Positions 2,864 to 38,605 of a stretch of DNA of 56,126 nucleotides are shown one piece after another. The stretch spans positions 1 through 56,126 of the IMG/VR virus record IMGVR_UViG_3300042988_000513; one strand, given 5' to 3'. Position numbers and translations under genes: made by a program. The stretch's first letter is position 1. Every line of letters starts with the position of its first letter. Under the pieces are notes generated by a model. The model saw only the letters and a list, made by a program, of their open reading frames with translations. It did not search any database and was not told the DNA's origin. Source of the DNA: a virus.

Positions 2864-5746
2864 TTACTTGCTAGTTTCGCTAGACGACCCGAAGCCGTCC
2901 TTCTGGTAGTGAAAGTCGATTGCGATTGCAGGAACGCGCTCGGCAATGTGCGCCTCAAGAACAGGCCTATAGAAGCGACACAGTAGGACGTTTGAAATCC
3001 CGATATCCGTTCCAGCTCGCGAACCGGCAATTGTCCCAAGGTCCGTAACGATATGCTTCCAGCGGCTATCGCTCCCCAGAACCTCGTTGGCCTCGATGTG
3101 GATCGTGTAGCCGTATACGACAACGCCAGTGTCTGCGGCCTCTGCGATATCCGCGTGGGTCACGGCATAGGAGATCGTGTACACGCCACCAGTGTCCACG
3201 ACGGCCGTGATTCGGTGGTTACCATCGTATGTGCCCTCGTCGGCGTCGCTAACCACGATATTCTGCCCGACCTTCAATCCGTGCGTCGCGCCGAACGTAA
3301 TTGTCGCGACGTTGCCGGATAGTGATGTTTTCGTAGACGCCGGCGCGGTAACTCGGAAGTTTCCGGCCGTGTTTGCCCACGCATACTCGAGTCCCCAGCG
3401 CACCGTCCCGGTCGTGGTCGTCGGCATCGTCCAATGCACGTGAGCCTTGATGTCCGAGCCAACCTTGTAAGAGTGCGGCATCTGCGCGTTGAAGACCAAG
3501 TCATCTTCGCGCGAGTCCAGGAACCCCCACCCAAAGACGCCGGCAGTCGAACCAGTTCCGGTAGCGTCCATGATCCGCTGCATGACAGGAGTTGTGCCAG
3601 CGCTTGCGGAAAGCCCCGTGAGCTGGAAGCTCAGGTCGTCCCAGCCGCCTGCCGTCTGAGTAAACAGCGGGCTGGTGACGCTAGTGGAGAACGTCTTGGC
3701 CCCGGCGAGAGTCTGTGTGCCCGTGCTGACCTTGCCCGCCGCCGATGCTCCAGCGTCGGGGCAGATGACGGACCACGTGCCGGCCCCGGAGGCGTTAGTG
3801 CAGACCCAGCCGATCTCGGCGCCAGAGGAGGGAGCGGAGTTGTAGACGATACTGCCAACGGTCCACGTTCCAGACGTCGGAGCCGCAGACGCCCACGTCA
3901 CGAGCTGGCCAGTGGTAGAGCCGTCGCCGCCAAAGCGCACCTTCTCGTTAAGCTGGGCCGGAATGGCCTGGATCTTTGCCGTCCTAGTGGACCCGGATGG
4001 CGTTGACACGTAGGGAATACTGAGCGGGTCAATTCCCTTTGGCGGGTTCTTGATCAGCATCAGGTCCGTAACCTTGATCCAGTCTCCAATCTGAGGCTGA
4101 GTAATAGATAGGAACAGGTACAGTCCTGACGTGAAGCTAGTAGTAACGCTGAAATATGCGCTAAATCGTCTCCACGAAGTATCGGCATACGGATACTGTG
4201 CGTTGTCTGGGTATCTTGTTCCGTTTCCCACTGACGCGGTAAGATCCACAGAGAAGCCTGGCTGGGCAAGAGTGCCGCGATACATCGCGGTAGACGCCTT
4301 AACCCATCCGGTAATCAAGAACACATCTCCAGCAACAGGCATGTCGGCCACGTAGAGCAACTTTCCGGCCGACGCCATGCTTGTGCTTAGAGCCGCAAGC
4401 TTCATGGACGTTCCGGTAGACACACCGTCTGCAGGCTCGTGAGTGATGTCGCTCTTGGCCGCGTCTACCTCGTAATACTCCAAGATGTCTGCCGCAGCAC
4501 TGAATGACGATCCTGGAAGCTGATTTGTCACCAGGCAGTCTGGCGCGTGTCTTCCAACAACACCACTTCCCAGTGGGGCGCGAGTGTTAATTCCGTTGTC
4601 TATAACATCAGAACAGGCAGACCCGCCCCACACGTCGCTAGCATCAACGCTAAACGAGGAGGGAGAATCTACCTTCAACATCGTTCTGGCGTTACCGCCG
4701 CTAGTTGGCTCGTAGTATCCGGAGAACGTGTTCTGAAGACCCGCCTCGTGCCAGATCCCGCCAAGCGCGTTGTTGCTAATGTCTCCTAGCCACTTGTTGG
4801 TAACTCCTCCAACTACATGAATACCCCAAGCCCGATTTCCGGCAGTCTGACAGTGCCTAAACGTGTTATAGTTTCCGTCAATCTTGATTCCGTCCCCTAC
4901 GGCATAGTACGCCTTGCACGATTCAAACTTGTTGATGTAGGCGTCTTCGATGTAGATGCCCTGGGATCCCTTGTACGTGTAGACGTTGTCGAACTCGTAC
5001 CTAGAACCGTTGTAAACGTGCAGGCACGGGCCAAGCCCAACGTCTCCCTCTTCAACTACATCGTCGTTTCCTAATATGTAAACGTTTCGCATAGCGAAAC
5101 CGCTGTCGCCACGGCTAGTTCCGTCGATCTTGACGCCAGCAGTACCGTCTCTGGCGGTGCAGTTTAGGCACGCAGGCTGTATGTTTAGACCGACGCCATA
5201 CGCTCCCTCAACAACAATAGGAGTCGTCGGAAACGTCAGCGTAGTTTTGCAGATGTACGCATTTCCGGGTAGCAACCTGAGCCGGCCCCCACCTCCTGCG
5301 TGCAGAGCGGCAAGAGCTTGGTCGATGTGTGGCTTGTCGTCGTTCCACCCGTCAACGTGCGCACCGAACTGGTTGGGCGTAACCGTCTTCTTTTCGGCGT
5401 AACCGGAAGGGCTGTCATACGCACCAAGCGTAAGACCAGAGTCCCATCCGCTGAATATCTGCGCGTCCTCTGGGGCGTCGAGCTGGCCGGCAATCGCCAG
5501 CGTTCCTCCGGACGCGTACAAGAACATCGCGCCGCGCTCCATGCGCAGAGCAACCGTCATCGGGAACGCTACTGCGCTGGCGATCTTGTAGGTCCCCGGA
5601 GGCATGAACACGGTAGCGCCGGCCGCAGCAGAGATTGCTGCGTTGATCGCAGCAGCATCGTCAGCGGAGCCAAGTCCCGTAGCGCCATAAGACTTGACAT
5701 TGAAGACGCCTGGAGGTGAGACCGTCGAGCCGAGTTTGATTGACAT
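2864..5746 (-). CDS. Tailspike 1, pectate-lyase-type beta-helix protein (probable polysaccharide depolymerase)
   Basis: A 960-residue protein. The start (VFNVKSYGATGLGSADDAAAINAAIS...FMPPGTYKI) is the classic N-terminal motif of Pectate_lyase_3 tailspikes. A second copy follows at about residues 125-190 (FGAHVDGWNDDKPHIDQALAAL...LLPGNAYIC), then short beta-helix turns to about residue 380. Residues about 415-585 look like a jelly-roll carbohydrate-binding domain (GDVFLITGWVKAS...DTSWRRFSAYF). At about 620-665 is a module shared with tailspike 2 (GTWTVGSIVYNSAPSSG...GWVC). It is followed by a TGTQTLAGAKTF linker and a distinct beta-rich C-terminal domain (MPHSYKVGSDIKAHVHW). It should bind and possibly cleave surface polysaccharide. 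Catalytic residues cannot be assigned by eye. Confidence 0.85.
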   Translation of the reverse strand: MSIKLGSTVSPPGVFNVKSYGATGLGSADDAAAINAAISAAAGATVFMPPGTYKIASAVAFPMTVALRMERGAMFLYASGGTLAIAGQLDAPEDAQIFSGWDSGLTLGAYDSPSGYAEKKTVTPNQFGAHVDGWNDDKPHIDQALAALHAGGGGRLRLLPGNAYICKTTLTFPTTPIVVEGAYGVGLNIQPACLNCTARDGTAGVKIDGTSRGDSGFAMRNVYILGNDDVVEEGDVGLGPCLHVYNGSRYEFDNVYTYKGSQGIYIEDAYINKFESCKAYYAVGDGIKIDGNYNTFRHCQTAGNRAWGIHVVGGVTNKWLGDISNNALGGIWHEAGLQNTFSGYYEPTSGGNARTMLKVDSPSSFSVDASDVWGGSACSDVIDNGINTRAPLGSGVVGRHAPDCLVTNQLPGSSFSAAADILEYYEVDAAKSDITHEPADGVSTGTSMKLAALSTSMASAGKLLYVADMPVAGDVFLITGWVKASTAMYRGTLAQPGFSVDLTASVGNGTRYPDNAQYPYADTSWRRFSAYFSVTTSFTSGLYLFLSITQPQIGDWIKVTDLMLIKNPPKGIDPLSIPYVSTPSGSTRTAKIQAIPAQLNEKVRFGGDGSTTGQLVTWASAAPTSGTWTVGSIVYNSAPSSGAEIGWVCTNASGAGTWSVICPDAGASAAGKVSTGTQTLAGAKTFSTSVTSPLFTQTAGGWDDLSFQLTGLSASAGTTPVMQRIMDATGTGSTAGVFGWGFLDSREDDLVFNAQMPHSYKVGSDIKAHVHWTMPTTTTGTVRWGLEYAWANTAGNFRVTAPASTKTSLSGNVATITFGATHGLKVGQNIVVSDADEGTYDGNHRITAVVDTGGVYTISYAVTHADIAEAADTGVVVYGYTIHIEANEVLGSDSRWKHIVTDLGTIAGSRAGTDIGISNVLLCRFYRPVLEAHIAERVPAIAIDFHYQKDGFGSSSETSK

Positions 5747-5755
5747 GGCTTATCC

Positions 5756-7885
5756 TTACAGGCTGATGGGCCCGAATTCTTTCCAGGTTCCTGAACCGGT
5801 TGCGTCTACGCAGACCCAGCCGACGCTTCCGCCTGCCGAGGGGGAGGAGTTGTAGACGATATCGCCGACAACCCAGGTTCCTGTCGTCGGGGCTGCGGCC
5901 GCTACATTTGGAGTGCTGGCCGGACGCCAGTTGTAACTTCCGTCAGCGTCCTTTAGACAGACATAAAGCCGATCTGGGACGCCTGTGCCTCCGGCGACAG
6001 CCGCCAGTGTGTCTCTATACGTTGCTCCTGCGGCCGGAAGTGCTCCGACATGAAGAACAGACACGCCGCCATCAAACGAGCCACGTCCTGAAGCGTAGAT
6101 TCTTGCAGCCTCTGACGATCGCCATCCGGCATAGAAGGCGTGAATCTTCGCAGTTGCGTTCGTTAGTGTTTCAGCGTTAGACGACCTGCACGCGACGGCC
6201 GATGCCCCATCGGTGGCTGTTCCAACCAGGCCAGTTGCCACGCTTGCGGACTGCCCGATTACTTCGTTTGCGTAGACTGTGCCATTTGACGTGAGCGCGT
6301 CGCCGAGGAGTAGTCCTCCGGCGAAGTATCCCTTCCCATCCTTGTTGATGTACGCCTTTTCAGTTGAGAGGTTGTCGTTGTACCACGAGACAATCTTGTC
6401 GCCAGTCGTGCTTAGCGACGTGGCATTGCCAACCTTGTTGGCGATTGCCGTCCCGCTGCTAGTCGCCGTTCCTACGATTCCGCCGGAGGCCTTGATCGGC
6501 CACTTGAACGATGCACTTGACGCTCCACCTGCGGCGTTATCATGCAGATAGACGACATCCGGAAGAAGCGTTGAGTCAATCGTACCGGCGGCGAGGAAGA
6601 GACCGTCAAACAGCACGGCCGGAATAGATGTAACGCCAGCGTCGGAGCTACCAAGGAACTCGTCGCCACCCGTCGCGTTTACATAGCACGAGCCCTTGAA
6701 GTTGATCGTGTGCGCAGATGTGCAGCAGTCAACATATGGGTAGTCTCCGGCCGCTGTATTACAGTTCTCCCAGTAGCAGCTATCGAACGTCACAGCATAC
6801 GCGTTCTGGATTCGAACTGCCTGGCGCGCAATGCTCTCGAACACGCAGAATCTGAACAGGAAGCCTTCTAGCGAGATGCTTTCTCCGTATAGCGAGCACG
6901 CCGGAAGCGCGGCCGTGATTCCAGACCAGCGGCACCGGTCGAAGCAGATCGTGTTGCTCGCCTCCGTTGACGATAAAGCAATAGGTGCGTTGTTAAACTG
7001 GACGGCCTCAAACTTACAGCCAGTCATCTCGACAGCTTTCCCGCTGCAGTCGAACACTTTGATGTTGTTGAACTCGACGTCGTCGAAGAGCGCCCCAAAC
7101 TCCATTTTCGTGATCGGAGCAGTAGGGGCCGGAACCGTGATTGCGAACTCGGCTGGCGTAGTGGCAGCCTGACCCTGAATCATCAGCCGCCGAAAGCGCA
7201 GTCCGTGTCGCCCAATCTGGCCGTCTCCGCCAGGTACCGCGAACGCCTTTACCGATGCATCCGCTTTAATGACCGACCCGCCGGACCCAACGCCTTCGAA
7301 CGTTGTATAGTGGTTTGTCAAGCTGAGCGACGATGCTACGCGGTAGGTGCCGACAGGGAAAAATACAGTTCCAGCGCCTGCTGCAGAGATTGCGGCCTGA
7401 ATTGCGCCAGCGTCATCTGCCAATCCATCCGCAGAGGCGCCCCACCATTGCGGAAAAACGCAATCAACGTGTCCACCGCCAATCGACACTCCAGACGTAA
7501 ACCCGGAGAACACTTGAATTAAAGGCGCTGTGAGTGGTCCGTTGATCGCGACAGTGCCGGAGCCGCTCTTGGTCAATACCGCCCCGACCTCGATAACAAG
7601 ATGGACGTTCGCCGGAACAGTGACCGCTGCGTCAATGGTCCACGTGCCCGGAATCAGGTGAAGCGTGGCCTTGGCGGAGGCAATAGCCGTTAGCTGCGTG
7701 TTGATTGCGGCGGCGGTAAACGCGGTAGGGAAGCAGTGGCTGAACACCAGGCCTGGCGCCGCCTTGCCGGACTCGTAGCCAGTAGCCAGGCTGGTAACGG
7801 CAGACGCAATCCCGCTACCAGACCAAACGCCCTCTTCGGACGGATTCGTTGGGTTCTTCAGAAATGGGCCGCCGAACCTTGCCAT
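5756..7885 (-). CDS. Tailspike 2, pectate-lyase-type beta-helix protein
   Basis: A 709-residue protein. After a short N-terminal segment (MARFGGPFLKNPTNPSEEG) and a first beta-helix entry (residues about 55-135), the motif VFPQWWGASADGLADDAGAIQAAIS...FFPVGTYRV (about 143-195) starts a Pectate_lyase_3-like right-handed beta-helix with DVEF/CKFE/CRWS-type turns to about residue 400. A later region carries two similar blocks (AYINKDGKGYFAGGL and ARIYASGRGSFDGGV), as in fibre shaft repeats. The C-terminal ~45 residues repeat the module of tailspike 1 (GTWVVGDIVYNSSPSAG...GWVC). Its role is host surface recognition. Two depolymerase-like spikes in one phage suggest a broad or switchable receptor range. 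Confidence 0.83.
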   Translation of the reverse strand: MARFGGPFLKNPTNPSEEGVWSGSGIASAVTSLATGYESGKAAPGLVFSHCFPTAFTAAAINTQLTAIASAKATLHLIPGTWTIDAAVTVPANVHLVIEVGAVLTKSGSGTVAINGPLTAPLIQVFSGFTSGVSIGGGHVDCVFPQWWGASADGLADDAGAIQAAISAAGAGTVFFPVGTYRVASSLSLTNHYTTFEGVGSGGSVIKADASVKAFAVPGGDGQIGRHGLRFRRLMIQGQAATTPAEFAITVPAPTAPITKMEFGALFDDVEFNNIKVFDCSGKAVEMTGCKFEAVQFNNAPIALSSTEASNTICFDRCRWSGITAALPACSLYGESISLEGFLFRFCVFESIARQAVRIQNAYAVTFDSCYWENCNTAAGDYPYVDCCTSAHTINFKGSCYVNATGGDEFLGSSDAGVTSIPAVLFDGLFLAAGTIDSTLLPDVVYLHDNAAGGASSASFKWPIKASGGIVGTATSSGTAIANKVGNATSLSTTGDKIVSWYNDNLSTEKAYINKDGKGYFAGGLLLGDALTSNGTVYANEVIGQSASVATGLVGTATDGASAVACRSSNAETLTNATAKIHAFYAGWRSSEAARIYASGRGSFDGGVSVLHVGALPAAGATYRDTLAAVAGGTGVPDRLYVCLKDADGSYNWRPASTPNVAAAAPTTGTWVVGDIVYNSSPSAGGSVGWVCVDATGSGTWKEFGPISL

Positions 7886-7894
7886 TGTCTACCT

Positions 7895-10516
7895 CTACTT
7901 GCAGGCCGAAGCCCTGGCGTTCTTGCACTCGAGAACCTTGGAGACGTGGCCACCAAACGCGCTAGCGCCGGCAGCGGAGCCGCTACCGATGTACATGGTT
8001 CCGACGCTGGCGGGGCCCGTGCCACTGCCGCTAACCGTTGACGCCTGGAGAGCGCCATCCACGTACAGGCTAGGCGAGCTTCCGTCCCAGCAGCACAGCA
8101 GCGCCTTAGACGAGTTTGCGGCAAACGCCTGGGCAACTATGGCCTTCTTCTGGGTCGCCCCCGCGTCGTAGCTATCACAGACGAGGTTGTTCGAGGCGTC
8201 GAGCCCTAACGATAGCGAGTTGGCGCCTTCCGCCGTTCCTTGCGACAACAGCCAGCGCTTTGCTGACGTGCTCCAGTTTGGCGACGAGAACGTGCCCCCG
8301 ATGCAGCCCGGACCGGCCGCGCGCTGACTGGAGACGCTTGCGACTGTTACGGGCCTAGTCGTAAGCGTTCCAGCCTGGTAGATCGGAGGAGTTGCGTAGG
8401 AGCCGCGCTCGTTCTGCGCTCGCCACAGGTATACGGTTCCAGCTCCGTCGCCGTTGTAGTTAATTGAGCCGTCAACCTTGGACAGTCCGACGGTAACATA
8501 CGTGTTAGACGTGTTAGGCATTGTCTTCGTAAGCCCAACGCGACACCAATCTCCGCCAATGTCTTCTGCGAACGGTGTATTTCCGGACCCGGTTGTTCCA
8601 GCAGAACACGAAGACAGATCAAACCAAGTCCAAGACGTACCGTAGTCAATCGACAGGGCTATGATTGAAATAGTTCCAGCCTTGGCGTACACGGAGTATG
8701 TCATCGGCTCGGCAAATGGCGTATACAGATACGCGAGATATCTGTCGTACGTACCGGCGTCGTCTGTAACAAGCGAAGCGGAGCCCCCGTTTGGAGCAAG
8801 AGTAGTAGCCTCCGTAATTGTAACGTGTGACTTTGCTAGCCCACCTCCACTCCATTCGTACGGCTCGCTATATGGAGCCTCGTTCCTTCGCGCCGGCCAA
8901 ACTCCCGCCCCATACTGGCCGATAGCCGGAGTACCAGCAGCAACCGTGTAGCACGCACCGTCAGACACGGGGCACACGGTCTCCGTCGCAGCGCGAGTCC
9001 ACACTACCTTGAGCCCCGGGTCCGTCTTCGCCAGAAGGTACGACCTATAGAAGGCCACCATTTCACTAAGCTCATCAGCAGAGGCCGCAACCCCCTTCCA
9101 GAACGTGGCGCGCGAGATTCCTCCAGTGAACTTGTTCTGTCCCCCAATCAACAGGGGCCCGTCAGCGTCTGCCACAATTGACTTTGCTGACGTCGCAGGA
9201 GACGGGACGGTTGAGTCAACCTGCATGCGCATGACGCCGGTATCTCCGGCTCCGTATAGGTAGCTGGCGCAAAGAACGTGCCAGGTATTTAGCGCTACCG
9301 TTGACGCGCCAGAGTCAAGACGAGTAAACGAAGATCCGTCAGCCGCTCCGTGAACATAGAAGTAGGCCTGGTCACTGTTGTACCAAAGAGTGAACTGCAT
9401 GTGACCCGGATTTATGAACTTGCTAATAATGTCGGAGGCGGCAGCGGTTGGGTAGAACACCGTGCAGAACGTAAACGACGTAAGCGGGTCAACCGTATCG
9501 CCGGCGCTCCAGTAATCCGTTGATCCGTTTGTTACGGCCGAATATCCAGGGTAGTAGCTTGAGGTTGACGTAGTCTGTGCTCCGCCCTCCTTGCTAACGG
9601 ATAGCCCTGAGCACGCCAGGTCTCCGCCAGAGCTGGCAGCGACGCAGTCAACGGTAGGCGTTCCGGCCCTTGGCCATGCCGTAGATGCGATAGTCGGCTT
9701 GCTCGCGATCAGCGACTGGTAGCCAGCGACCATCTGCGCGAGCTGCGAGGCGGAGGCAACGCCAAGGCCCAGCGTTACTCGCTGGATTTCTCCATCCCAC
9801 CCGTCTCCACCCCAGCCGTACTGACCAATAAGAAGGGGCGCATTGGACGACTGTGCAGGCGAAATTGCCGTTGTGCTTGGGGTACCTACGGTCGTATTCG
9901 CTTGCAGCCTAATAATTCCGGAGCCGTCTCCACCCGACCCGTCGAATGTTCCGCATACTACATTCCATGCGTTGATGGATCCTGCGGCTGTTACAGTGGT
10001 GTATTCGGCATCTGTCTTGAATACTCTGAATAGAAAGCTTGTTCCATCGTACCTGAGATAGTACGACCTGCTTGTTCCTGCGCTTGGAGCATTTGCGTCC
10101 TTGGCAAATATTACTCCTGCCGCTGTAGGTCTGGCGACGGCGCAAAACCATAGAGACGTTGTAACGTCGGCAACGTCCCCAAGGTCCCAATAGTTTGAGT
10201 TGTTGCTAACAGTGTTTGATGTGAGTTGGGCGCCGGAGAATCCGCTAGGGTAGTATGGGCTGGCCGAAGTTGTAGGAGATCCCTGTTTGCTTGCCGTTGC
10301 GCCAGAACACGTGAATGCCCCGTCTGTGGCTGCGGCCGAGCAATCAATCGTAGGAGTCGGCGCCCCGCTCCAGCTGGAAGCTCCGCTAGTCGTCCAGTCG
10401 ATTTTTCCGACCACGGGAGGAGGCTGTCCGGGCGTGAGCTGCATCGACGTGTCGATGCTGTAACCCATCCCAGACAGCAGGAAGACCGCCGTCGCCGCAA
10501 CGATTAGTCGGCGCAT
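7895..10516 (-). CDS. Signal-peptide-bearing protein with LamG / concanavalin-like domains
   Basis: About 873 residues from the ATG that lies two bases after the upstream stop (TAACCATG). The N-terminus MRRLIVAATAVFLLSGMGYS is a convincing Sec-type signal: basic start, hydrophobic core, small residues. It is followed by two similar LamG/concanavalin-like domains of about 220 residues. Each begins near (S/A)GxPTxDC and ends with PLLIGG/QY...GxIxRxTxxxGVAxSxxxLxxMV. After these come a jelly-roll segment (residues about 560-690) and a third LamG-like domain. Cysteines are frequent, compatible with disulphides outside the cytoplasm. An exported lectin-like protein in a virion gene cluster is unusual. 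It could be a virion adhesin whose N-terminus merely looks like a signal, or a cell-surface protein made by the infected host. Confidence 0.7.
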   Translation of the reverse strand: MRRLIVAATAVFLLSGMGYSIDTSMQLTPGQPPPVVGKIDWTTSGASSWSGAPTPTIDCSAAATDGAFTCSGATASKQGSPTTSASPYYPSGFSGAQLTSNTVSNNSNYWDLGDVADVTTSLWFCAVARPTAAGVIFAKDANAPSAGTSRSYYLRYDGTSFLFRVFKTDAEYTTVTAAGSINAWNVVCGTFDGSGGDGSGIIRLQANTTVGTPSTTAISPAQSSNAPLLIGQYGWGGDGWDGEIQRVTLGLGVASASQLAQMVAGYQSLIASKPTIASTAWPRAGTPTVDCVAASSGGDLACSGLSVSKEGGAQTTSTSSYYPGYSAVTNGSTDYWSAGDTVDPLTSFTFCTVFYPTAAASDIISKFINPGHMQFTLWYNSDQAYFYVHGAADGSSFTRLDSGASTVALNTWHVLCASYLYGAGDTGVMRMQVDSTVPSPATSAKSIVADADGPLLIGGQNKFTGGISRATFWKGVAASADELSEMVAFYRSYLLAKTDPGLKVVWTRAATETVCPVSDGACYTVAAGTPAIGQYGAGVWPARRNEAPYSEPYEWSGGGLAKSHVTITEATTLAPNGGSASLVTDDAGTYDRYLAYLYTPFAEPMTYSVYAKAGTISIIALSIDYGTSWTWFDLSSCSAGTTGSGNTPFAEDIGGDWCRVGLTKTMPNTSNTYVTVGLSKVDGSINYNGDGAGTVYLWRAQNERGSYATPPIYQAGTLTTRPVTVASVSSQRAAGPGCIGGTFSSPNWSTSAKRWLLSQGTAEGANSLSLGLDASNNLVCDSYDAGATQKKAIVAQAFAANSSKALLCCWDGSSPSLYVDGALQASTVSGSGTGPASVGTMYIGSGSAAGASAFGGHVSKVLECKNARASACK

Positions 10517-10518
10517 GG

Positions 10519-11748
10519 TTATTGGACCGGGCAGACGTTCCAGACGGCCGTGCCCGTATACGCGCAACACGAGAAGATCGGCACCCCACCGTCTGCGTAT
10601 GCCTGGGGCCGGAAGGGCTCGGTCGTGGCCTCGTTCTGGACCATGTTGCCGGCAGTTGTAAACGAGGTGCAGGCCCCGCCGTTATTGATAGCAATGGCGC
10701 TGGTGCTAGTAACGGCGCTGCGGTAGGTCGTGCCGGCCGCCAGCGTGACAACGCCACCGTCGCCAACGGTCGAGCAGGAGGTGGTAACGCAGCTGCCAGT
10801 AGTCGGGCTGTAGCCGCTGGAGTTGGCGCCGCTTATGCCGGTAATCACGCCGGAAGAAACAATCGGGTTGGACGACGTGCCAAGCGCGCCGCCATCAGGA
10901 GCCCCATCGGAGAGCTGAACAATGGAGTGCCCGAACTCGTTCGAGGCGGCCCAGACAGCCGTGGTACCGTCCACCCTGGAGATCAGCTTGACCTTGGCCG
11001 AGATGTCGTCCTGTATGTCGATGGGCATGCGCTCGACAACGCCGCCGTCCGGGGTGGCGATGTAGACTCGCTGCGGAGTGGCGAACGTAACAGCCCCAGA
11101 GACGGGGAACGGGCCTTCCACAACTCCACCGTCCGGAGTGGCGATAAAGAACGACTGGTTGGACACGCCAACCGTGCCAGATGCCGTAACGCTACCGCTG
11201 ACGGTAACGGAGCCGCTTACCGGGAACGGGCCCTCGACCACGCCGCCATCGGGGGTTGCCAGGAAGAACGACTGGTTACTGACGCTAACGCTCCAGGGAC
11301 CCTCTTGAACGCCACCGTCCGGCGTTGCAAGGAAGAAGCTTTGGTTGGACACCGCAACAGTGCCGGAGGCGGTAACACTTCCGCTGATGGGGAACGGCCC
11401 CTCGACGATGCCACCGTCCGGAGTCGCAAGCCAGACAGACTGGTGCGCCCCGATAGTCACTTCACCGGCGACGGGCAGCGGATATGGCATCGCTCCGCCA
11501 TCAGGAGCCAGGAGCTTGCTCGACACAAACCCGCTAATCGAGGTGGTAGCAGTGCCGCTGACCTCGACCTCGAGCTGACCCGCATCGTTCACGCGCATCG
11601 GCCTGGCGACGCTACCGCCAGTAAGGCCGTACTGCGGCACCTTCCCGGAACCAGGAAGGCTAGCAGCATCAACGACTTGCGGAATCGCTACATAGGCAAC
11701 AGCGCACAGCGTAAGACCAGCAAGAGCAAGGGCCCGGATTCGGGACAT
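10519..11748 (-). CDS. Signal-peptide-bearing protein with six PDGG repeats
   Basis: A 409-residue protein of unrecognised family. Residues 1-29 (MSRIRALALAGLTLCAVAYV...VVDA) look like a cleavable Sec signal. The middle (residues about 80-250) has six units with an (A/T)PDGG core, mostly SNQSFFxATPDGGVVEGPFP followed by VSGSVTxSG spacers. The remainder is G/S/T-rich with three cysteines in GACTSFTT and FSCCAYTG. A strong ribosome site (AGGAGG) and a promoter-like motif lie in the short gap after the giant gene, so it probably heads its own unit with the LamG protein and the tailspikes. The repeats suggest a fibrous, exported or virion-exposed stalk. No catalytic motif was seen. Confidence 0.65.
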   Translation of the reverse strand: MSRIRALALAGLTLCAVAYVAIPQVVDAASLPGSGKVPQYGLTGGSVARPMRVNDAGQLEVEVSGTATTSISGFVSSKLLAPDGGAMPYPLPVAGEVTIGAHQSVWLATPDGGIVEGPFPISGSVTASGTVAVSNQSFFLATPDGGVQEGPWSVSVSNQSFFLATPDGGVVEGPFPVSGSVTVSGSVTASGTVGVSNQSFFIATPDGGVVEGPFPVSGAVTFATPQRVYIATPDGGVVERMPIDIQDDISAKVKLISRVDGTTAVWAASNEFGHSIVQLSDGAPDGGALGTSSNPIVSSGVITGISGANSSGYSPTTGSCVTTSCSTVGDGGVVTLAAGTTYRSAVTSTSAIAINNGGACTSFTTAGNMVQNEATTEPFRPQAYADGGVPIFSCCAYTGTAVWNVCPVQ

Positions 11749-11785: not shown

Positions 11786-11799
11786 GCCGCAAGCTATAC
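11786..11799 (-). promoter_or_regulatory. Promoter-like motif, copy A (GTATAGCTTGCGGC)
   Basis: This minus-strand 14-mer is identical to the copy before the scaffold gene (32738-32751) and differs by one base from the copy before TerS (38606-38619). It lies in the 54-base gap after the giant protein gene, 38 bases before the next start codon. No TTGACA-like -35 is seen at the normal distance, so it may be an activator-dependent or phage-specific late promoter. Confidence 0.6.
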
Positions 11800-11802: not shown

Positions 11803-14800
11803 CTAGTCGCTCAGCGGCCTAAGCGGATTCAGAGGCTGGTTGTCGCGCTTGCCGTACAACAGGCCCTCAATGAACTCTACAGGCTCGTCAACGACCTCAA
11901 ACTCTCCTTCCATGAGGTAGTCGGCCATCCTGACGTTCTGCACGCCAAGCCCGAGCGACCCGGCAGCCCGGAGCCACGCCTTGGAGGCCCTATCTTGGTC
12001 GTCTCCGTTCTTGGACTCGTTGACGGCCTCCCAGAATGAATAAATAGCGGCAACGCCAGGGGATGCCCTTGGAGACATCTTTCTTGGGCTCAAGCCAGAC
12101 TCGGCAATTGGGCCAACGATTGGAACGGTAAGTAGCGGAGCCATGGCCGTTTTCCGCAGGAACCAGTTGCGGTAGCGCTCCCAGTCGTCGTCTCCGTCCT
12201 CCGGCTCCGGCCCTCGACCGCTCAACCACTCTGACAATGGACCGTAGATCATGGCCATGGCAATCCCCGTAGCGACGGCCTTGGCGACCTGCTTTGCGGC
12301 CTCCTTGCCCTTTATGTGGCCGGTCGAAGCCAGGTAGACAACGTGGGCCAACTCGGCGTTGCGCTGGAAGGCCCTATTGAAGAATCCTCCCATGAACACG
12401 ATCATGCCAACTGCACCCTTATCCCTGAGAAGGGCCGACTTCTCGTAGCCGTACTTGGGCGGAACCCACCTACTGGCCTTGTCCTCCGCGAAGTCAACTG
12501 CAATCCGATCCATGTCATCAACCGACAGGTCGGTGCGCCCGGCCAACTCCTTGAGCTTGATTCGATACGCCGCCAGCCACGCCGGCCGAAGGACAGCCTT
12601 CTCAATGGCTTCGGCGACTACATATCCGTATTTCTTCTGGAATGTCATGTACGGGTTGTTGGCAAACGACATTCCAGCAAAGGCGCGGTTGATCTCGTCG
12701 GACAGTTCGCGCGACCATCCCTCTTTGCGGCTACGCATCCATCCAGACTTCTGGTCGATGAAGTTCCCCCAGTAGCCCCAGCCGCCTGCAACATCCTTGA
12801 TTGCCATAGCGTAGTCGGTCTTGCTTAGGCCGAACGAGTTCAGGACGATGCCTGGCGTATCGCCGAAGAACGTCTTAAAGTTGAAGGCCATGATTTGAAG
12901 GCCAAGTCCGGCCTTGGCCATCCGAAGGGCCCTGGCGATAGTAAAGGCTCCATGCGTCATGACCTCCATATTCCTATCGTTGCCAATGTCCTTCAGCCAC
13001 GGCAGGAACTGACGCTGCCACTCGGTACCCAGGCGCTCCTTGAACTCGCGCTGCAGGTCGGAGTCTAGCAGCAGACGGCTGACGCTCATTAGCGGCTCGC
13101 GGAAGGCGATATCGTGAGCGGCCTGGGAGATGTGAGCCTGGAACACGGACGGATCCAGCGCAATCACATCGGCAAAGTTCTCGGCGCGTGACTTTGTGTT
13201 CGAGTGAGACGTGTGCGCAGTGCTATAGGACTGGTCAAGCACGTCTGCCGCATACTCGACGGCTTGGCGCTCGGCCACAGAAGAGTTTCCGCGACGGTCG
13301 TACACGGCCGGGATGTACCCGCCGCGATACGTTCCGTGCCTGGTAACAATCTGGCGGGCCTCGATCTCGTCCGGCCTGATGCCAGACACGCGCTCTTCAA
13401 CGTCAAAGGCGAGCGGCTTTAGCGCCTCGTTGGCGTCCCAAATTGACTGGACCCAGTCCCACTCTTCCTTGGTCAAAGCATACGGCCCGTCAAGCAACGC
13501 ATTCCACACCTCGGCCTCGGTAATGCCCCTACCCTTGGTCAGGCGATCCATGTTGCTTGAGTTTCCAGAGTTGGCAGCCATCATAAGAAGCTCAAAGCGC
13601 TTTGTCGGCGCCTTGATGTCGGCAGAGCCATCTGACCTAGCGCCACTTCTGTGCGTTGGGAACAGCTTATTCCCGTCGATGCTGTCGCCAAGATGCCGCT
13701 TAACCTTATCTGGCATCCTGTCCATCGCGTCCAGGATGCTCTTGCAGGCCCCGTTAATCAGGTCGTTCTCGCGGGCCTGGGCTTCCTTGAGCGGCTTGAA
13801 GATTGCCCGGTTAAGCCAGGACTCTGACCAGTTGTTTCCGGCCGCGAAGCCAAGCTTTGTCCGTGCCTCAAGCGCGTCCCCTGCCATCTTGCGGAGCGTC
13901 GGCTTCCTTCCCTCGGTTGGAGTCGAACTTGACAGCGTAGGGCGCATCGGCAGAGCGGCGCGGATCTCGTTTGTGATGCGCGCCTTGATCTCGTCCTTCT
14001 CGTACTTCTTGCCGTCAACGATGGTTGTCTCTGCGTTTCTGAACGCCTGCTGGAACTGCTTGAGGGCTGTAAGAGCGTTACGCATTTCTCCAACAGACAG
14101 CACGCGCATGTCTCTCGGCTTGTACAGAATCATCGCCAGAGCATCGGCGTCGAACTTGGCAACGATTCCCTCGTTCTGCTCCATGGCGCGAACGGCCTCA
14201 TGGATCGAGTGCGGCTGCTTGTCGCGCTCCTGGGGCTCGGCTAGATTCAGAGCCTCAAAGATCGTCTCGATTGCGTCGCGATACGCAACAGCGGCTTTGG
14301 CGGCGTTTGTTGGCTTTCCGTTCTCGTCCCTGGCGGCAGCAGCCTTTCCCATGCGCGACTGCCACCTGTCGCCAGCCATGTCCTCGGCAATTTTCAGAAC
14401 CCGGTCAAAGTCGTCCTTTGCATCCTCCAGCTCCCTCGCAAGGTAGAAGTTTAGCAGTTGCTGCTGCTTAGCGAAGACGGCCCGCTCCACGTCACCCTTG
14501 GCTGCCGCCTCCATGGCACGCTTGGCAGCCATCCGCTCCGCCTGACGAGCCCGGCCAACGTTGATGGCGCCAGCCTGGGCGTCGTTCGCCAGCTCTCGCG
14601 CCGCACGCTTGATGGACTCGAGCGGGACAGACGGCTTGCCTGGACGCGCCTTGCGCTCAAGAGCGCGCCACTCCGCGATAAGCCAATCAGCCGTATGGTC
14701 TCCGTGCAGGCCCTTGGAGACCTCGGCCGCCAGGGCGTCCCTGTCCGTCAGCATCGGCCCTAAGCGCTCCTCGAGAATCGCCTTGCTTCGCGCCGCAACA

Positions 14801-17800
14801 TAACTATCCCTATCGGGATGATTTTCCAGCGCGTCTGCCATCGCCTTCCCGTCAGGGAATCCCAGAACTCCGGCCATCTCGTCGAGCGAGGGGCCTTCCT
14901 CGCCGGGTCCGCGCCATAGCCCAGATGGCGGACGAATCTCGGCCCCTGACTGCGCCTTGCCCTTCTTGGCCGGCTCATCCTTTGGGGCCGGAGGCATACG
15001 CTCGACGCCATCGAATAGCACGTCCTCTGCGAACTCGAGCGTAGCAGGCTTCTCGAACATCGTGGCCTGACGCGGATCGACTGCGGCAACCGACGCCCAG
15101 CGCTTGAACGCCTCAGAAACCTTCTTCTGCGTGGCTCCGTCGAGAAGCGAAGCCATGGTCCTGGCATCGTCTCCGAATACGGTAGCTTCCCCGAACAGTC
15201 CGGGCTGACGAAGCAGATCCTGCAGCGACAGCTTGCGCCGCTTGGCGTCGGCCAGCAAGTCCATGGCCTGCTGTACCGTCTCAATCTCGTCAAGCGCACC
15301 ATTAATTCCGGCCACCCGGATCAGGTGTGGAACGGCCCGCTCAATCTTCTTTAGAAGCTCGGGAGCGGCAGCAGCAAGCCTATCTCCGGTTCCAACGACA
15401 CGCCCCAGGAACATGCCCTCAATTCGGTCCTTGGCCTCGTCGGTTAGATTTCCCCCGGCAAGCCACTGTGCCTGGTTCTGGTCGGTAACTATTCCGTCTC
15501 GTCGCAGAATCTTGGCGATGTCCTGCGGCCTGTCGCGCATTGCGTCGCGCAACGAGGAGTCATCCGACAGGAGCCCGGCAAGGTCCTGAACGCTATCCGA
15601 AGACAGCATGCGAGCCTCGGCAACAGCCTTGGCCCTTGGAGACAGTGCCTGCGTCATGCCCTCGTTAAAGCGCCGAACGGCGGCCTGTAGATCCGACTTA
15701 GGAGCATCGGAAGACACGCCGTCGATAACGCGCACCAGGACCGGAGCGTCCATCCTGGCGATTTCCTTGGCCGACATGCCGAAAGATGACGCCCGGTCAA
15801 TCAGCGCAGACCTGTAGGCCTCGAGCTGCTCCTTGTTGGAGAAGCCTCGCAGCATCATCATTGACCGGCCGTTTCCGCCAAGAACGAGATGTTTCTTGCC
15901 GGACGTGACGAGCGGCGGGCCATCCACGGCAGACGGAGTATTAGCGAGCAGGAGCGAGGGATTAAGCGCCTGGGCGCCAGAAACAACCTTGGCCTGCTCC
16001 TCGGGCTGGCGATGATACTCGCGTTCCTGGACTTCGGCGGGATAACCTTTGGTCGGCTGGAACGTAGTCGGGCTGTGGGACGGAAGCAGATCCTTGGCTT
16101 CGATGACCTTGTAGGTGGCCGCCTCTCCGGACTTGTTCTGTGGAGTAATGACGGAAGTCGAGCGCGAGCCGCGCTTTCCGCGTCTAGCCAGGCGCTTCTC
16201 GGCAATGGCGTCTCTAAGTTTCTCCTCTATCGCTGCGGCGGCCTCCTCTCCGACAGACTCAACAACGTCCTGACGGTCAAGCTTGCCGGCTTCAATTGCA
16301 GAGCCGTCTTCTCCGATAACGCGCCCGGTCTTGACATACTCGGCGGCGCGAGTCTCCGGAAGCGCATCAAACTCCTTCGCGGCCTCGGCCACCGCCGAAG
16401 CCTCGTGAGGCCTAAGATTCTCGTTGGCCTCTCGAAGCTCCGCCTTCAGCTCGCGCAACCGGGCAGCCAGCTCCGCCTTGGAGTGCGCGGCTTCCTGGGC
16501 TTCGAGATACGCCTGCCACTCGCCGGGCTGCATTCCGGCCTCTTCCGGCGAGCGGAACATGGGACGCATGCCGGCCTCGTCCTTGGCGGCCTCGATCTCC
16601 TCGTCTGTCGCAAGCATCCGGTCGAAGACGGCTCGGACCTCGTCGTTAAGACCGGCGTCTTTCAGCGACCCATAGATGCGCTTGAGCCAGTTGCTGAAGC
16701 GCTTGAATGCGCCCTTGAGAGACAGCGACGGAGCCTTCCCCTCTAACAGGTACGCCTCGAACAGCTTCGCGAACTTCTCGTGCTGCTCGGTCCCGACTTC
16801 CGCCCTTGACTGAACTCCGAACTCTCGGAGAATGGTCGCGTAGTCGTCCTTGATCTGCTGCGGAGCGTCGGCGCGCTCGCTCAGGTCTCCAAGCATCTCC
16901 AGGTAGATGTGGCCGCTTTCATGGAGGAACGTAGAGAGATCGCTGTTCTTCTTCAGGAAGACGTTGCTGATCAACTGCCCGGCCTTGCGCACGAACTGGA
17001 CGTAACCGCGAGAGTCAGACTCCTTGCCCTCGTAGTACGTCTTGATGTCGCGGATCTCGTTCTCGTCCCAGATGACGAAGTTGTAATTGCCCTCGCCGGA
17101 GCCTCGTGAGTTGCCGTCCAGGTAGCGCAGTCCGGGGATTCCAACTTTGTTCAGCGCCTCGGATGCAGCCTGCTCGTTTCCCCATCGCTCGGAAAGGGCC
17201 CGATAAACCATGGCCCCGGTCGCCTCTTCGGACTCGACTCGCTCACCGTTTGCCAGCCTAATTTTCTCCCGTCCAGATTCGTCGTCGATACGAACAGCGA
17301 GTCCTGCTTCTCGAAGCGCCTTGAGCACCGAAGGCGGCTGCTCAGCCATCGGCCTGTCGTAGTCCAGCAGCCGGTCGCTCTCTGGCACGTCAACGGAGTA
17401 GAGTTGGCCCTGCGCGTCTTGGATCTGGTCAACGGTCGTGCGGTCTGCTAGCGCCTTGGCATTGCCCCACAGTCTGACCATTGCCTCCGCGTCGGCAAGG
17501 TCTAACTCCGATCCGACCTTGGTTACCGAAACTGGGTTGTTCGCTACCTTATCGTATCGCTCCTTAGCCCTCTTGTACTCGCGATCAGCCTTGAGCCGAG
17601 CCTCAAGCAGGGCGTCACCCTTGCTGGCGCCACTGTTTAGCTGAGTGTGCAGCTCTTGCGTAAAGTAGTTGTGATTCGGACCATAGGTGCGCTCGCCATC
17701 ATTTATAACCGGTGCGCGATTCGCCAGTGTCTTTCGGTAGAACTCGCCGACGGCCTTATCGCCAGCGAAGTACATGCCCCAGCCGTAGGCCTGGGCGCCC

Positions 17801-20800
17801 TCTCCGGTCCCGATCTTCTGGAGGCTAAAACCCGTCTGCTCAATCCCGCGATGGGGAGAGCCGTGCCAGGCGGGCTGCTCGTAGATGTTGGGGGATGGCT
17901 GGAACAGCATGTGAGGGCGGCCGGGCCCTCGGGGGTCAACTTGGCCGACTTCTTCGTCGAGTCCAGACAGCTCGTGCGCTAGATAAGTCGCTCCCCGTCC
18001 CCCAGCGTCAAGCTCAGGATTCGGACGACCCTTCGCTGCTTCGGCGCGGAGCTGCTTTGCTCGCTCGCTGTCGGGGGCGTGGATTCGGGACTTGGCAGCG
18101 TAGTAGGCCTTTCCTCGGCCGGCTGCTTCCTCTCGCTGCTTGGCTGCTGGGAGTTCAACCCCATCGGCTTGGTGTTCGGCATCTGCTCCTCCGGCAAGTC
18201 CATAGGCATAGTGTAACCCTTCCTGCTCCAAAATGCTACTATCGTCCAACTCCATGACTTCGTGCGCGTTTCCGAGCAGGCTTCTGACTTCCTCAAAGAA
18301 TGCCTTTAGTTCCTGCTCGCTGTTTCCCTGCGCGCGAATCTCGTCACCACTAACGTGCGCCACGTCAAAGCGGTTGCCGCCTCTGCGAACCATGCTGCGG
18401 ACGACCTTGCGCACCATTTCATCTGTGATCTCGTGTCCAAACAGCACATCCATGGCCTTGACTGCGCGGATGTCTGCCGAGACAACGAAGTCCTTTGGAG
18501 CGCGGCGTCGAACCTCGTCCCAGCCGGCCTTGGTCAGCGCCCCGGTCTCCTTCTCAAAGTACGCCTCCTCGGCCGCCTTGCGAGCGTTGAACGTGCCGTG
18601 GCGCTCGACCAGCGGCACTTGTAGGGCTCGGCCCTTGGTTCCAAGTCTTGTCTTTGACGGCTGGACGTTGGCTGTTTCAGGGAGCCTGTCTTCGCGCTTG
18701 GGGAACTTGCCTTCGGATCGCTTGGTGTCCGTGTGGGCAGACAACGTGTCGCCGCCACGGTGCTTGGTTGCGGTCCAGTCCTCGCCCGCCTTGCGCTCCA
18801 TGACCGTGCCGACGAGCGGAATGTCCTTGAGGCCCTCGGGCAGCTTGGAGCGGAGTTGCTCAATGAGCGCATCCATCTCGGCCTGGTCACCGAAGGCAGG
18901 AAGCCACAAGTCCCCTCCGACCTTTCCGGCGTTCGGATCAATCTCGTGCAGCGCCTTGGCGATGTCCCTGAAGACGTCGTCTGCGAAGTCGTGCCCCTTT
19001 CCCTTAACGTCGTTCAGATCCTTTTTGTATCCGAAGCTAAGAACGCCGTAGTTCGGCCGCGCCTCGTCGGCGGGCATGTCCCTGATTCCGCGCTCGTGCA
19101 GTAGGTCTGTTGTGGCGTCCCGGTAATACAGGTTTCGCTTTCCCTCGTCGTCCATCTCGCGATAGGCCCGCTCCAGAATGCCGGACGCCTCGGTGCGATT
19201 AACTGGAGGCTGCTGCTGGGCCGCCTCGGCCTGCTGGGCGCCGTCCTGGTGCCGCTGGACCGTGACGACGTACTGACGCATCATGTCTTCTACTGGCACG
19301 CCGCTACGCTTCGCCATCGTGACGACTACCGAAGCCAGCTGCTCAACGCTGGCAGCGCTGTCCTCGACCTTCATGTGCTGCTTGCGAGTCTTGCCGTCCT
19401 TGCCGGTCTGCTCTCGCTCGTAGGACTTTAGCAGCTGCGACTGGACTACCTGCATGAACTCGCGCTCTGCGTCGGTAGCCTGCTCAGACTTGGCGCGCTC
19501 GACCAACGCCTTTGCCTCGGTCTGAATCGAGGCCTGCTTCTGCGCGGCCTGGGCCGGAGTGTCCATGAATGCATGGCCGATGACGTGCCCGCCGTTAACC
19601 AGAGCGTCGCCAAGCGGCTTCGTGGCAATCTTCGCGGCCCACTCGCCAACAGGGATCTCGAGCTTCGACCCGGTAACGATGGCGGCGTTGATTCTCTTGT
19701 ATCCGTCCGGCCCGAGCAGATCGGTGGCGGCCTGCTCGAGCGGCTGGCCGGCCTCTTGGAACAGCGTCAGCAACTGCTCGGCGTCGGCGTACATATGCGT
19801 TACTGGGGCGCCAGACTCGCCGGTGGCCTTCTCGACTACCTTGGCATAGCCAGCCGGGCTGGCCTTCGCGAGCTGCGTTTGCGTGCCCTTGTGGACTGCG
19901 GAGACTTGCTGCGCGGAGCTGGACTGCTGGGCGCGCTCGATGGACATACCGACAACATGGCTGCCATATCCGATTGGCCCAAGGCCTGCGGCGCCAATCC
20001 CGCCAGCGACAAAGGCTCCGCCCGCGTCACCAAGCATGGCTGCAACGTCAGGGCCGGACGTCTCGCCCATCTTGAGCTTTAGAGCGTAATCAATAACGTT
20101 CTGCAGCGTCTGCTGCTGGGCCTCCTCCTTGCCCTCCGCATACATGCCAGCCACAAGTCTGGAACTCCAACGCTTGCCAGCCTCCTTGAGCAGCGTCCTG
20201 AACTTGCCATCTGAGGCCAGCCAGCGCGCAACCTCCTTTTTCTCAAGCCCAACCAGCTTGTCGCCGATTGGCCCCAGCATCCTGAGTTCCGCCTCGTTGC
20301 CGCCAACCTCGATGGCGGAGGCGATTGCCGCATAGAAGATGGTCGCGCCAATCAGCGTAGGCTCGTCGAGTTCTCCGTCTGGCCCCTTGACCTTCTTGAA
20401 CTGTCGATAGGCGCTTCCGCCCTCCGCAACGAAAGAAGCCGTGTATCCAAGAGCCCTGCCTACAACCTTGGCAGCCTTTCTGCCAGCCATGGGCCCGAAC
20501 ATCCTACCAACGCCAAGTCCTGCGGCAGCGCCAAGGGCCTGCGCTCCAAGGCTTTCCGGGTTAGAGGCGAACGCCTGAACCGCATCAAGCCCAAGCTGCA
20601 TGGCCGGACCCTGGCCGTACCACGGAACGTCGCCAAGCTCTTGCTCCATAGCGACGAGCTTCTTTTCGTTCTCGAAAACATCCTGTCCACGGATCTTGCC
20701 AATCATTACCTTGAAAGCCGTAACGCTTGCATCGTGGTCCCTGCGATAATACTTGTATGCAGCAGGCAGAATCTTCAGGCGCTCGACGCCCTCAAGCTTC

Positions 20801-21573
20801 GCCTCGGGAGCCGTAACAGTCTGGATGATGTTTGGCTTCCTAGCCTCGGGAACAGACTCAAGGGTAGAGATGGCCTTATTGGCGCTCTCTTCGGAAGCGG
20901 CCTGCATCTTCTTGGCTTCGCCGGCCAACTTCTCGTCGCCGAACAGGGCGGCAGAGCCAGCCATCTTTCGGCCAACCTCGGCCTGAGACGACGCGGCAAA
21001 GCCAGACTCCATGGCGGATCCGAGCTTTCCGACTGCGTCAGCCGCGAAAGTGAGCCCCCGCTTGACGAAGCTACCAGGCTCAACCCGAGACGCAACTTCG
21101 CCAGTTCGCAGTTCTTCGGAAATATCCCTAAGCGCCGGATCCTTCAGAATCGGCCCGGCCAGGTGCTGATGCTCAAGTAGCGTCTCGACCAGGTCTGGAT
21201 AGTCACGCTCAAGCCTGTCCGTGTCGTACTCGGAGACCTCGGCGGCCTTGCTGAACTTGTCCAGGTTTGCGTCGATGACGTCCGGATGTAGGCCGGTCTT
21301 CTCGGCCATTCTGATGACGCGCTGTCCACGCTCTCCGATTCCGAATCGGTCGGCTTCGTACAGGGCCTTGATGCGATTGCTCCTAATGGACTTCTGCTCC
21401 CGGCGTTGCAGCGCATCAGCAATGTCCGGATCAACGGCGTCCTGCGGCTCTGTCTGCCCGGAGCTTCGCCTTGCTACTGCCTCAAGAATATCCGGATCGT
21501 TCTCAAGCGCAGAGGTGTCTTGCGCCGATTCCTGGTTGTTATCGGCGCCAGCGAGGTCGTTTTCCTGTGCCAT
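11803..21573 (-). CDS. Giant polyvalent virion/ejection protein (3256 aa) with GGDEF-like, ART-like, zincin and DdrB/ParB-like domains
   Basis: It occupies the slot of T7 gp16, after gp13-, gp14- and gp15-like genes, so it is probably carried in the capsid and injected with the DNA. Regions read from the sequence: N-terminal helical part with a hydrophobic segment near residues 345-385. A degenerate GGDEF-like domain at about 815-900 (YYRDATTDLLHERG ... GHDFADDVFRDIAKAL ... KVGGDLW). A second at about 1004-1085 (ETGALTKAGW ... SADIRAVKAMD..FGHE ... VSGDEI). An ADP-ribosyltransferase-like domain at about 1231-1505 (WHGSPHRGIEQTGFS ... YGWGMYFAG ... NYNFVIWDE). A zincin motif HESGH at 1551-1555. 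A DdrB-like ParB domain at about 1818-1990 (YKVIEAKDLLPSHSP ... VLGGNGRSMMM). A long helical part follows, and a C-terminal ~400 residues with hydrophobic helices (IVFMGGFFNRAFQ, GIAMAMIYGPLSEWL) like polyvalent-protein-associated domains. Its start overlaps the upstream stop as TAATG. Confidence 0.85.
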   Translation of the reverse strand: MAQENDLAGADNNQESAQDTSALENDPDILEAVARRSSGQTEPQDAVDPDIADALQRREQKSIRSNRIKALYEADRFGIGERGQRVIRMAEKTGLHPDVIDANLDKFSKAAEVSEYDTDRLERDYPDLVETLLEHQHLAGPILKDPALRDISEELRTGEVASRVEPGSFVKRGLTFAADAVGKLGSAMESGFAASSQAEVGRKMAGSAALFGDEKLAGEAKKMQAASEESANKAISTLESVPEARKPNIIQTVTAPEAKLEGVERLKILPAAYKYYRRDHDASVTAFKVMIGKIRGQDVFENEKKLVAMEQELGDVPWYGQGPAMQLGLDAVQAFASNPESLGAQALGAAAGLGVGRMFGPMAGRKAAKVVGRALGYTASFVAEGGSAYRQFKKVKGPDGELDEPTLIGATIFYAAIASAIEVGGNEAELRMLGPIGDKLVGLEKKEVARWLASDGKFRTLLKEAGKRWSSRLVAGMYAEGKEEAQQQTLQNVIDYALKLKMGETSGPDVAAMLGDAGGAFVAGGIGAAGLGPIGYGSHVVGMSIERAQQSSSAQQVSAVHKGTQTQLAKASPAGYAKVVEKATGESGAPVTHMYADAEQLLTLFQEAGQPLEQAATDLLGPDGYKRINAAIVTGSKLEIPVGEWAAKIATKPLGDALVNGGHVIGHAFMDTPAQAAQKQASIQTEAKALVERAKSEQATDAEREFMQVVQSQLLKSYEREQTGKDGKTRKQHMKVEDSAASVEQLASVVVTMAKRSGVPVEDMMRQYVVTVQRHQDGAQQAEAAQQQPPVNRTEASGILERAYREMDDEGKRNLYYRDATTDLLHERGIRDMPADEARPNYGVLSFGYKKDLNDVKGKGHDFADDVFRDIAKALHEIDPNAGKVGGDLWLPAFGDQAEMDALIEQLRSKLPEGLKDIPLVGTVMERKAGEDWTATKHRGGDTLSAHTDTKRSEGKFPKREDRLPETANVQPSKTRLGTKGRALQVPLVERHGTFNARKAAEEAYFEKETGALTKAGWDEVRRRAPKDFVVSADIRAVKAMDVLFGHEITDEMVRKVVRSMVRRGGNRFDVAHVSGDEIRAQGNSEQELKAFFEEVRSLLGNAHEVMELDDSSILEQEGLHYAYGLAGGADAEHQADGVELPAAKQREEAAGRGKAYYAAKSRIHAPDSERAKQLRAEAAKGRPNPELDAGGRGATYLAHELSGLDEEVGQVDPRGPGRPHMLFQPSPNIYEQPAWHGSPHRGIEQTGFSLQKIGTGEGAQAYGWGMYFAGDKAVGEFYRKTLANRAPVINDGERTYGPNHNYFTQELHTQLNSGASKGDALLEARLKADREYKRAKERYDKVANNPVSVTKVGSELDLADAEAMVRLWGNAKALADRTTVDQIQDAQGQLYSVDVPESDRLLDYDRPMAEQPPSVLKALREAGLAVRIDDESGREKIRLANGERVESEEATGAMVYRALSERWGNEQAASEALNKVGIPGLRYLDGNSRGSGEGNYNFVIWDENEIRDIKTYYEGKESDSRGYVQFVRKAGQLISNVFLKKNSDLSTFLHESGHIYLEMLGDLSERADAPQQIKDDYATILREFGVQSRAEVGTEQHEKFAKLFEAYLLEGKAPSLSLKGAFKRFSNWLKRIYGSLKDAGLNDEVRAVFDRMLATDEEIEAAKDEAGMRPMFRSPEEAGMQPGEWQAYLEAQEAAHSKAELAARLRELKAELREANENLRPHEASAVAEAAKEFDALPETRAAEYVKTGRVIGEDGSAIEAGKLDRQDVVESVGEEAAAAIEEKLRDAIAEKRLARRGKRGSRSTSVITPQNKSGEAATYKVIEAKDLLPSHSPTTFQPTKGYPAEVQEREYHRQPEEQAKVVSGAQALNPSLLLANTPSAVDGPPLVTSGKKHLVLGGNGRSMMMLRGFSNKEQLEAYRSALIDRASSFGMSAKEIARMDAPVLVRVIDGVSSDAPKSDLQAAVRRFNEGMTQALSPRAKAVAEARMLSSDSVQDLAGLLSDDSSLRDAMRDRPQDIAKILRRDGIVTDQNQAQWLAGGNLTDEAKDRIEGMFLGRVVGTGDRLAAAAPELLKKIERAVPHLIRVAGINGALDEIETVQQAMDLLADAKRRKLSLQDLLRQPGLFGEATVFGDDARTMASLLDGATQKKVSEAFKRWASVAAVDPRQATMFEKPATLEFAEDVLFDGVERMPPAPKDEPAKKGKAQSGAEIRPPSGLWRGPGEEGPSLDEMAGVLGFPDGKAMADALENHPDRDSYVAARSKAILEERLGPMLTDRDALAAEVSKGLHGDHTADWLIAEWRALERKARPGKPSVPLESIKRAARELANDAQAGAINVGRARQAERMAAKRAMEAAAKGDVERAVFAKQQQLLNFYLARELEDAKDDFDRVLKIAEDMAGDRWQSRMGKAAAARDENGKPTNAAKAAVAYRDAIETIFEALNLAEPQERDKQPHSIHEAVRAMEQNEGIVAKFDADALAMILYKPRDMRVLSVGEMRNALTALKQFQQAFRNAETTIVDGKKYEKDEIKARITNEIRAALPMRPTLSSSTPTEGRKPTLRKMAGDALEARTKLGFAAGNNWSESWLNRAIFKPLKEAQARENDLINGACKSILDAMDRMPDKVKRHLGDSIDGNKLFPTHRSGARSDGSADIKAPTKRFELLMMAANSGNSSNMDRLTKGRGITEAEVWNALLDGPYALTKEEWDWVQSIWDANEALKPLAFDVEERVSGIRPDEIEARQIVTRHGTYRGGYIPAVYDRRGNSSVAERQAVEYAADVLDQSYSTAHTSHSNTKSRAENFADVIALDPSVFQAHISQAAHDIAFREPLMSVSRLLLDSDLQREFKERLGTEWQRQFLPWLKDIGNDRNMEVMTHGAFTIARALRMAKAGLGLQIMAFNFKTFFGDTPGIVLNSFGLSKTDYAMAIKDVAGGWGYWGNFIDQKSGWMRSRKEGWSRELSDEINRAFAGMSFANNPYMTFQKKYGYVVAEAIEKAVLRPAWLAAYRIKLKELAGRTDLSVDDMDRIAVDFAEDKASRWVPPKYGYEKSALLRDKGAVGMIVFMGGFFNRAFQRNAELAHVVYLASTGHIKGKEAAKQVAKAVATGIAMAMIYGPLSEWLSGRGPEPEDGDDDWERYRNWFLRKTAMAPLLTVPIVGPIAESGLSPRKMSPRASPGVAAIYSFWEAVNESKNGDDQDRASKAWLRAAGSLGLGVQNVRMADYLMEGEFEVVDEPVEFIEGLLYGKRDNQPLNPLRPLSD

Positions 21574-38583: not shown

Positions 38584-38605
38584 GCCGTTAGCATGTGGCA
38601 CGGCT

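Follow-up and report, generated by a model that had tools for sequence, protein, structure and literature searches.

Tailed phages are taken to assemble wholly in the cytoplasm, and we know of no tailed phage that uses Sec export for its virion fibres. Why, then, does a podovirus-type genome place two genes with apparent secretion signals among its virion genes? The question is raised by the window analysed here, the whole of a 56.1-kb virus record with a podovirus late block on its minus strand (Table 1). In this block an adjacent gene pair with a 2 bp gap, p1 (gene A) and p2 (gene B), is flanked by a giant ejection-type gene on one side and by three tailspikes on the other, and the placement given for both genes in an earlier, sequence-only reading is thereby confirmed. 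Another IMG/VR record, IMGVR_UViG_3300047552_000539, has an identical terminase and is probably the same virus from a different sample. Elsewhere in the window, positions 49523-49741 hold an ORF of near-perfect short repeats (VRAAQVRAAQ...).

Table 1. Coordinates of the features discussed, in the window unless another locus (L number) is named
Feature	Position	Strand	Remarks
Large terminase	36695-38176	minus
Head-tail adaptor/portal	34203-36305	minus
Nozzle-type tail protein	24519-27608	minus
Internal virion protein	23534-24055	minus
Lysozyme-position protein	between internal virion protein and giant gene	minus	in late block
Giant gene	11803-21573	minus	3256 aa; ddrB-ParB domain; ejection-type; defines the slot
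p1 (gene A)	10519-11748	minus	409 aa; Sec-type signal peptide; PDGG repeats; Cys-bearing C-terminal domain
p2 (gene B)	7895-10516	minus	873 aa; Sec-type signal peptide; three LamG_3; Rcc01080-like module
Tailspike 1	5756-7885	minus	pectate-lyase-like; no signal peptide
Tailspike 2	2864-5746	minus	no signal peptide
Third fibre/spike-type gene	1580-2848	minus	no signal peptide
Serine integrase	54577-56100
Candidate late-promoter motif GTATAGCTTGCGGC, exact	11786-11799	minus	14 bp; 37 nt before p1 start codon
Motif, second exact copy	32738-32751	minus	precedes scaffold-like gene 31939-32715
Motif, third copy, one mismatch	38606-38619	minus	directly before gene 38176-38601 (small-terminase position)
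Signal-bearing genes behind capsid/nozzle-position genes	L113 11413-11853, 15581-16114; L114 867-1463
Cassette third gene	L086 13400-14050; L090 7297-7882; L114 10152-10945; L084 10019-10573		too dissimilar for BLAST
AF_025, AH02_17	L005 18446-19468; L063 9001-10098		PHROG 31472

Signals, modules and expression of p1 and p2

Signal peptides were called with our own rule-based script rather than SignalP, the rule being a basic n-region, an uncharged hydrophobic core and small residues at -3/-1. When all genes of the window were scanned, only p1 and p2 scored, besides one doubtful short ORF, so this prediction supports the Sec-type signals proposed earlier for both genes. Shuffled N-termini passed the rule in 0.5% of cases when taken from window genes and in 2.5% when taken from the signal-bearing proteins. 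The ATG of p1 is preceded by a strong AGGAGG Shine-Dalgarno sequence, and its N-terminus, MSRIRALALAGLTLCAVAYVAIPQVVDA followed by A, has all the Sec/SPase I features, with a predicted cut between VDA and A after residue 28. The mechanical ORF of p2 starts at GTG 10570; the likelier start is ATG 10516, 2 nt past the p1 stop, from which the protein begins MRRLIVAATAVFLLSGMGYS and has the same features with a weaker cleavage site (GYS before I). Reading by eye revealed no lipobox in the N-terminus of p1 or p2. The export signals are supported and, because their position is kept in related phages, look functional as judged from sequence. Cysteines also make up a median of 2.1% of the signal-bearing proteins, against 0.5% of the remaining proteins from the virion region of these phages (P 5e-5). 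As a marker of export, high cysteine content is weakened by tailspike 1, which equals p2 in Cys-richness yet has no signal.

The first protein, p1, contains seven PDGG motifs, nine DGG motifs and 7 cysteines; the repeats had been recognised before but counted as six. No p1 homologue was found in phages, in viral contigs of IMG/VR or in 195 Myxococcota genomes, and the search of GenBank phages gave zero matches even at E 10. A weak match to designed 'Bagel' proteins was rejected as repeat-driven, with no individual stretch significant. For p2, the LamG/concanavalin-like domains and many cysteines of the sequence-only reading are borne out by three Laminin_G_3 (PF13385, ConA-like) domains, with E 1.7e-27 and over the curated cut-off, and 18 cysteines. 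Its residues 521-730 are similar to the head fibre Rcc01080 of the gene transfer agent RcGTA (PDB 6tb9; E 7e-10), as is the profile of the family of B proteins described below (E 3e-15), and its residues 543-861 are similar to PHROG 5939, a tail protein. Close relatives were found neither for p1, p2 and the C-terminus of the giant protein in IMG/VR nor for p2 in GTDB genomes. The AlphaFold models of p1 (pLDDT 32) and p2 (pLDDT 31) were too poor for a fold search.

The candidate late-promoter motif before p1 recurs before the scaffold-like gene and before the gene in the small-terminase position, and p1 is for this reason probably expressed late; the same late expression is probable for the p1/p2 pair as read from the sequence. 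A promoter-like motif had been credited to both genes. It is present for p1, and p2 has no separate copy. A tRNA-like match (32778-32849) sits just upstream of the second copy. Two other candidates were discarded: sigma70-type promoters on the minus strand do not exceed chance, and AGCCTGTAAGGA occurs in only two copies, which is the chance level.

Genes that follow the giant gene in related phages

Relatives of the window terminase, 50% identical, occur in an Anaeromyxobacteraceae MAG and in other Myxococcota genomes, and from the related prophages we infer a Myxococcota host. A profile of the giant protein found eight loci among 147 genomes of that Myxococcota class, picked without reference to signals. 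Signal-bearing genes follow the giant gene, immediately or at a short distance, in three of the five profile loci with readable downstream sequence (prophages G154, G162 and G067), compared with 0 of 11 other loci (Fisher P 0.018, on a small sample); the relatives are few, and the prophages are MAG-derived. Distant relatives of the giant protein occur in the Pseudomonas phages HU1, AF and UFJF_PfDIW6 and in Vibrio, Cobetia and Caulobacter phages, and in these and several IMG/VR relatives the readable gene behind the giant gene is a T7-type fibre, a spike or another tail/lysis gene, signal-free in each case.

The B protein of G154 led to ctUh1700 (MW202637), whose own B protein then matched cto1L10 (MW202477); these two environmental genomes are of podovirus type, and each has the module behind its giant gene. 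In at least five genomes, those of the three prophages from Myxococcota and of the two environmental podoviruses, a signal-bearing gene adjoins a fibre-type gene in this slot. The cassette of G154 comprises A (123 aa; MRKLLLLIGVAALAAAALG), B (646 aa), C, which encodes a hydrophobic segment, and D (402 aa; MKRVLLAVLVLAVPASSWA), which has a 60-aa shaft segment in common with the signal-free tailspike 1 of the window. That of G162 comprises A (151 aa), which overlaps the stop codon of the giant gene, B (619 aa; MRYLVFLALLPGMALA) and C. In G067 the genes run from a T7-type fibre that bears no signal, through a lipoprotein on the opposite strand, to A (113 aa; MRQTLHLLLAAVLVFASPALA), B (636 aa) and E (184 aa), and an element unrelated to the window motif, GGAAAGCGTCCC, stands in exact copies before the scaffold, fibre F and gene A. 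In cto1L10, A (MKNLNLNTILICAVLFFVSLHLGVSFA) and B are followed by a hydrophobic-plus-Cys-rich C and a fibre-like D.

By BLAST, the B proteins are connected through ctUh1700, which matches G154 (7e-22), G067 (7e-26) and cto1L10 (2e-48). The window joins them by a match between p2 and the B protein of G154 (E 2e-6), and the B protein of G162 resembles p2 solely via the LamG domain and its position. In G154, G067 and cto1L10 the N-terminus of B lacks any basic residue and makes a weak signal. The A genes have position, signal and usually small size in common, with no significant sequence similarity. The third gene of the cassette encodes, in four genomes, an N-terminal hydrophobic segment and a Cys-rich, mostly DGG-bearing C-terminus.

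In ctUh1700 the B protein has a possible lipoprotein signal (MLKRASLAVLLLGAMGC) and adjoins a HELFH lipoprotein, and further signals occur in genes directly behind the capsid gene and the nozzle-position gene, and in genes after the giant gene. At the place behind the nozzle, ctUh1700 and cto1L10 have homologous signal-bearing genes, and the signal itself is kept. The HELFH lipoproteins beside the cassettes of G067 (L084 ~12882-13340, plus strand) and ctUh1700 (L113 24964-25476) are 35% identical (E 3e-20) and, from their sequences, are possible secreted metallopeptidases.

A fibre-type gene between terminase and giant gene was not found in G154 or G162, and a signal-free fibre or spike gene was not recognised in ctUh1700, which leaves three of the five slot genomes without a recognised signal-free fibre gene.

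Possible roles of the signal-bearing proteins

The N-terminal signals, their recurrence in the same slot of other phages, the fibre and lectin modules of p2 and its relatives and the motif in common with late genes are seen in the sequence. We tentatively propose that p1 and p2 are glycan-binding proteins of fibre type which are expressed late, exported via Sec and then dress the progeny at lysis. Transcription would go along with that of the virion genes; after export and cleavage by signal peptidase, the proteins would fold in the periplasm and form disulphides there. Once lysis opens the membranes, they would meet the progeny and attach as accessory receptor-binding fibres. In other phages, fibres or spikes can join finished particles last. 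Since no signal-free fibre was recognised in G154, G162 and ctUh1700, the signal-bearing genes of these phages are candidates for receptor binding, and this candidacy favours exported fibres that join virions after membrane opening. The same three genomes blur the contrast on which the sequence-only reading had relied, that virion proteins normally lack signals, and they are the reason why its second alternative, in which the virion contains proteins that have passed through the periplasm to mature, is now slightly favoured. Against exported fibres, a protein that leaves by Sec is cut off from the cytoplasm, where the particles assemble, and the three signal-free spike-type genes of the window mean that p1 and p2 are not needed as fibres. 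In addition, several ordinary phage tail proteins that bear no signal are homologous to the p2 module; most of the known relatives of this module have no signal, the signal-free carriers including Azospirillum phage Cd, Rhodobacter phage RcWaterboi, Nonlabens phage P12024S, a Synechococcus phage and others.

The separate signal-free spikes of the window agree with an unlikely but serious alternative, in which p1 and p2 are receptor-masking or decoy proteins, made late and exported to occupy surface glycans, thereby saving progeny from debris or blocking superinfection. Directed to the envelope or released at lysis, they would act like T5 Llp but with lectin/fibre modules. Signals combined with modules of a capsule-binding type, late expression, and the possible lipoprotein signal and lipoprotein neighbour of the ctUh1700 B protein are all in keeping with such masking, but it leaves G154, G162 and ctUh1700 without a recognised signal-free receptor-binding gene, and the window proteins, having no lipobox, would need an extra crossing of the outer membrane.

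An improbable but still serious rival is that the hydrophobic N-termini are not signals at all but docking plugs, A and B forming a base and a fibre that stay cytoplasmic until assembled. The model for this is RcGTA, in which Rcc01080 attaches particles to the host capsule and has its N-terminus (I-A-L-G-L-G-L-G-L) inserted into a pentameric base, whose protein is encoded by the gene immediately upstream (PMC7296036). The matches of p2 and the B profile to this fibre agree with a docking role, and the order of a small gene A followed by fibre gene B mirrors that of the small Rcc01079 followed by Rcc01080 (PMC7296036). The B N-termini of G154 (MIHLALALALAAA) and cto1L10 (MLTIALALALAAP) do resemble the plug, but they are the only ones that do: p2, which begins MRRLIVAATAVFLLSG, is not an uncharged Leu/Gly plug, and basic n-regions are found in p1, p2, A and B of G162, A of G067, A and D of G154, A of cto1L10 and the AF/AH02 proteins discussed below, most of them with small-residue cleavage sites. 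Moreover, the A proteins, the would-be base, themselves bear signals, and although A lies upstream in the relatives, no A protein matched the RcGTA base protein or any other solved structure by sequence.

That p1 and p2 are lysogenic-conversion adhesins, expressed from a prophage and coating the host cell as the sequence-only reading first suggested, is very unlikely: the window has a serine integrase, its relatives are prophages and the G067 cassette lies behind an opposite-strand lipoprotein gene, but the late motif in common, the 2-bp spacing, the G162 overlap and the location in the virion block group the cassette with the late virion genes, and export during lysogeny is not supported, since motif copies and overlaps tie the genes to late genes in the window, G067 and G162.

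It is possible, though doubtful, that a podovirus lineage, at least part of which infects Myxococcota, sends accessory fibres and perhaps all receptor-binding proteins via Sec, so that they mature outside the cytoplasm, and adds them to finished virions during lysis. Conserved export signals on fibre-type proteins that sit in the fibre slot and come under the late motif would imply either that assembly is split and runs partly through the periplasm, or else that there is a large class of exported phage lectins, which would protect progeny or exclude rivals. For phage annotation, a signal peptide is no ground for ruling out a fibre-type function.

Comparison with known systems

RcGTA Rcc01080 (PDB 6tb9, 6tba, 6tsu, 6tui) shares with p2 a homologous glycan-binding module (p2 residues 521-730) and its encoding behind a small partner gene. 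It has a Leu/Gly docking plug and no Sec signal, whereas p2 also contains LamG domains and has an N-terminus that is charged and of signal type. The PHROG 5939 tail proteins (such as Azospirillum phage Cd gp49) and the related proteins of RcapMu, RcWaterboi and P12024S have the same C-terminal module but, unlike p2, no signal peptides.

Phage-encoded exported envelope proteins are known in T5 Llp, lambda Lom and Bor, and phi80 Cor, with Lom encoded within the tail gene region. They differ in being small lipoproteins or membrane proteins that contain no fibre or lectin module. No report of signal-bearing fibres in tailed phages was found in the open-access literature. An independent parallel comes from Pseudomonas phages AF and AH02, whose proteins AF_025 and AH02_17 (46-47% identical) combine a conserved classical signal peptide with the tail-fibre modules that follow it and are encoded at the end of the tail/lysis region. 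In contrast to p2, they have no LamG or RcGTA-type module and lie outside the slot behind the giant gene. Since these proteins carry signals, signal-bearing fibre-like proteins extend beyond the lineage of the window.
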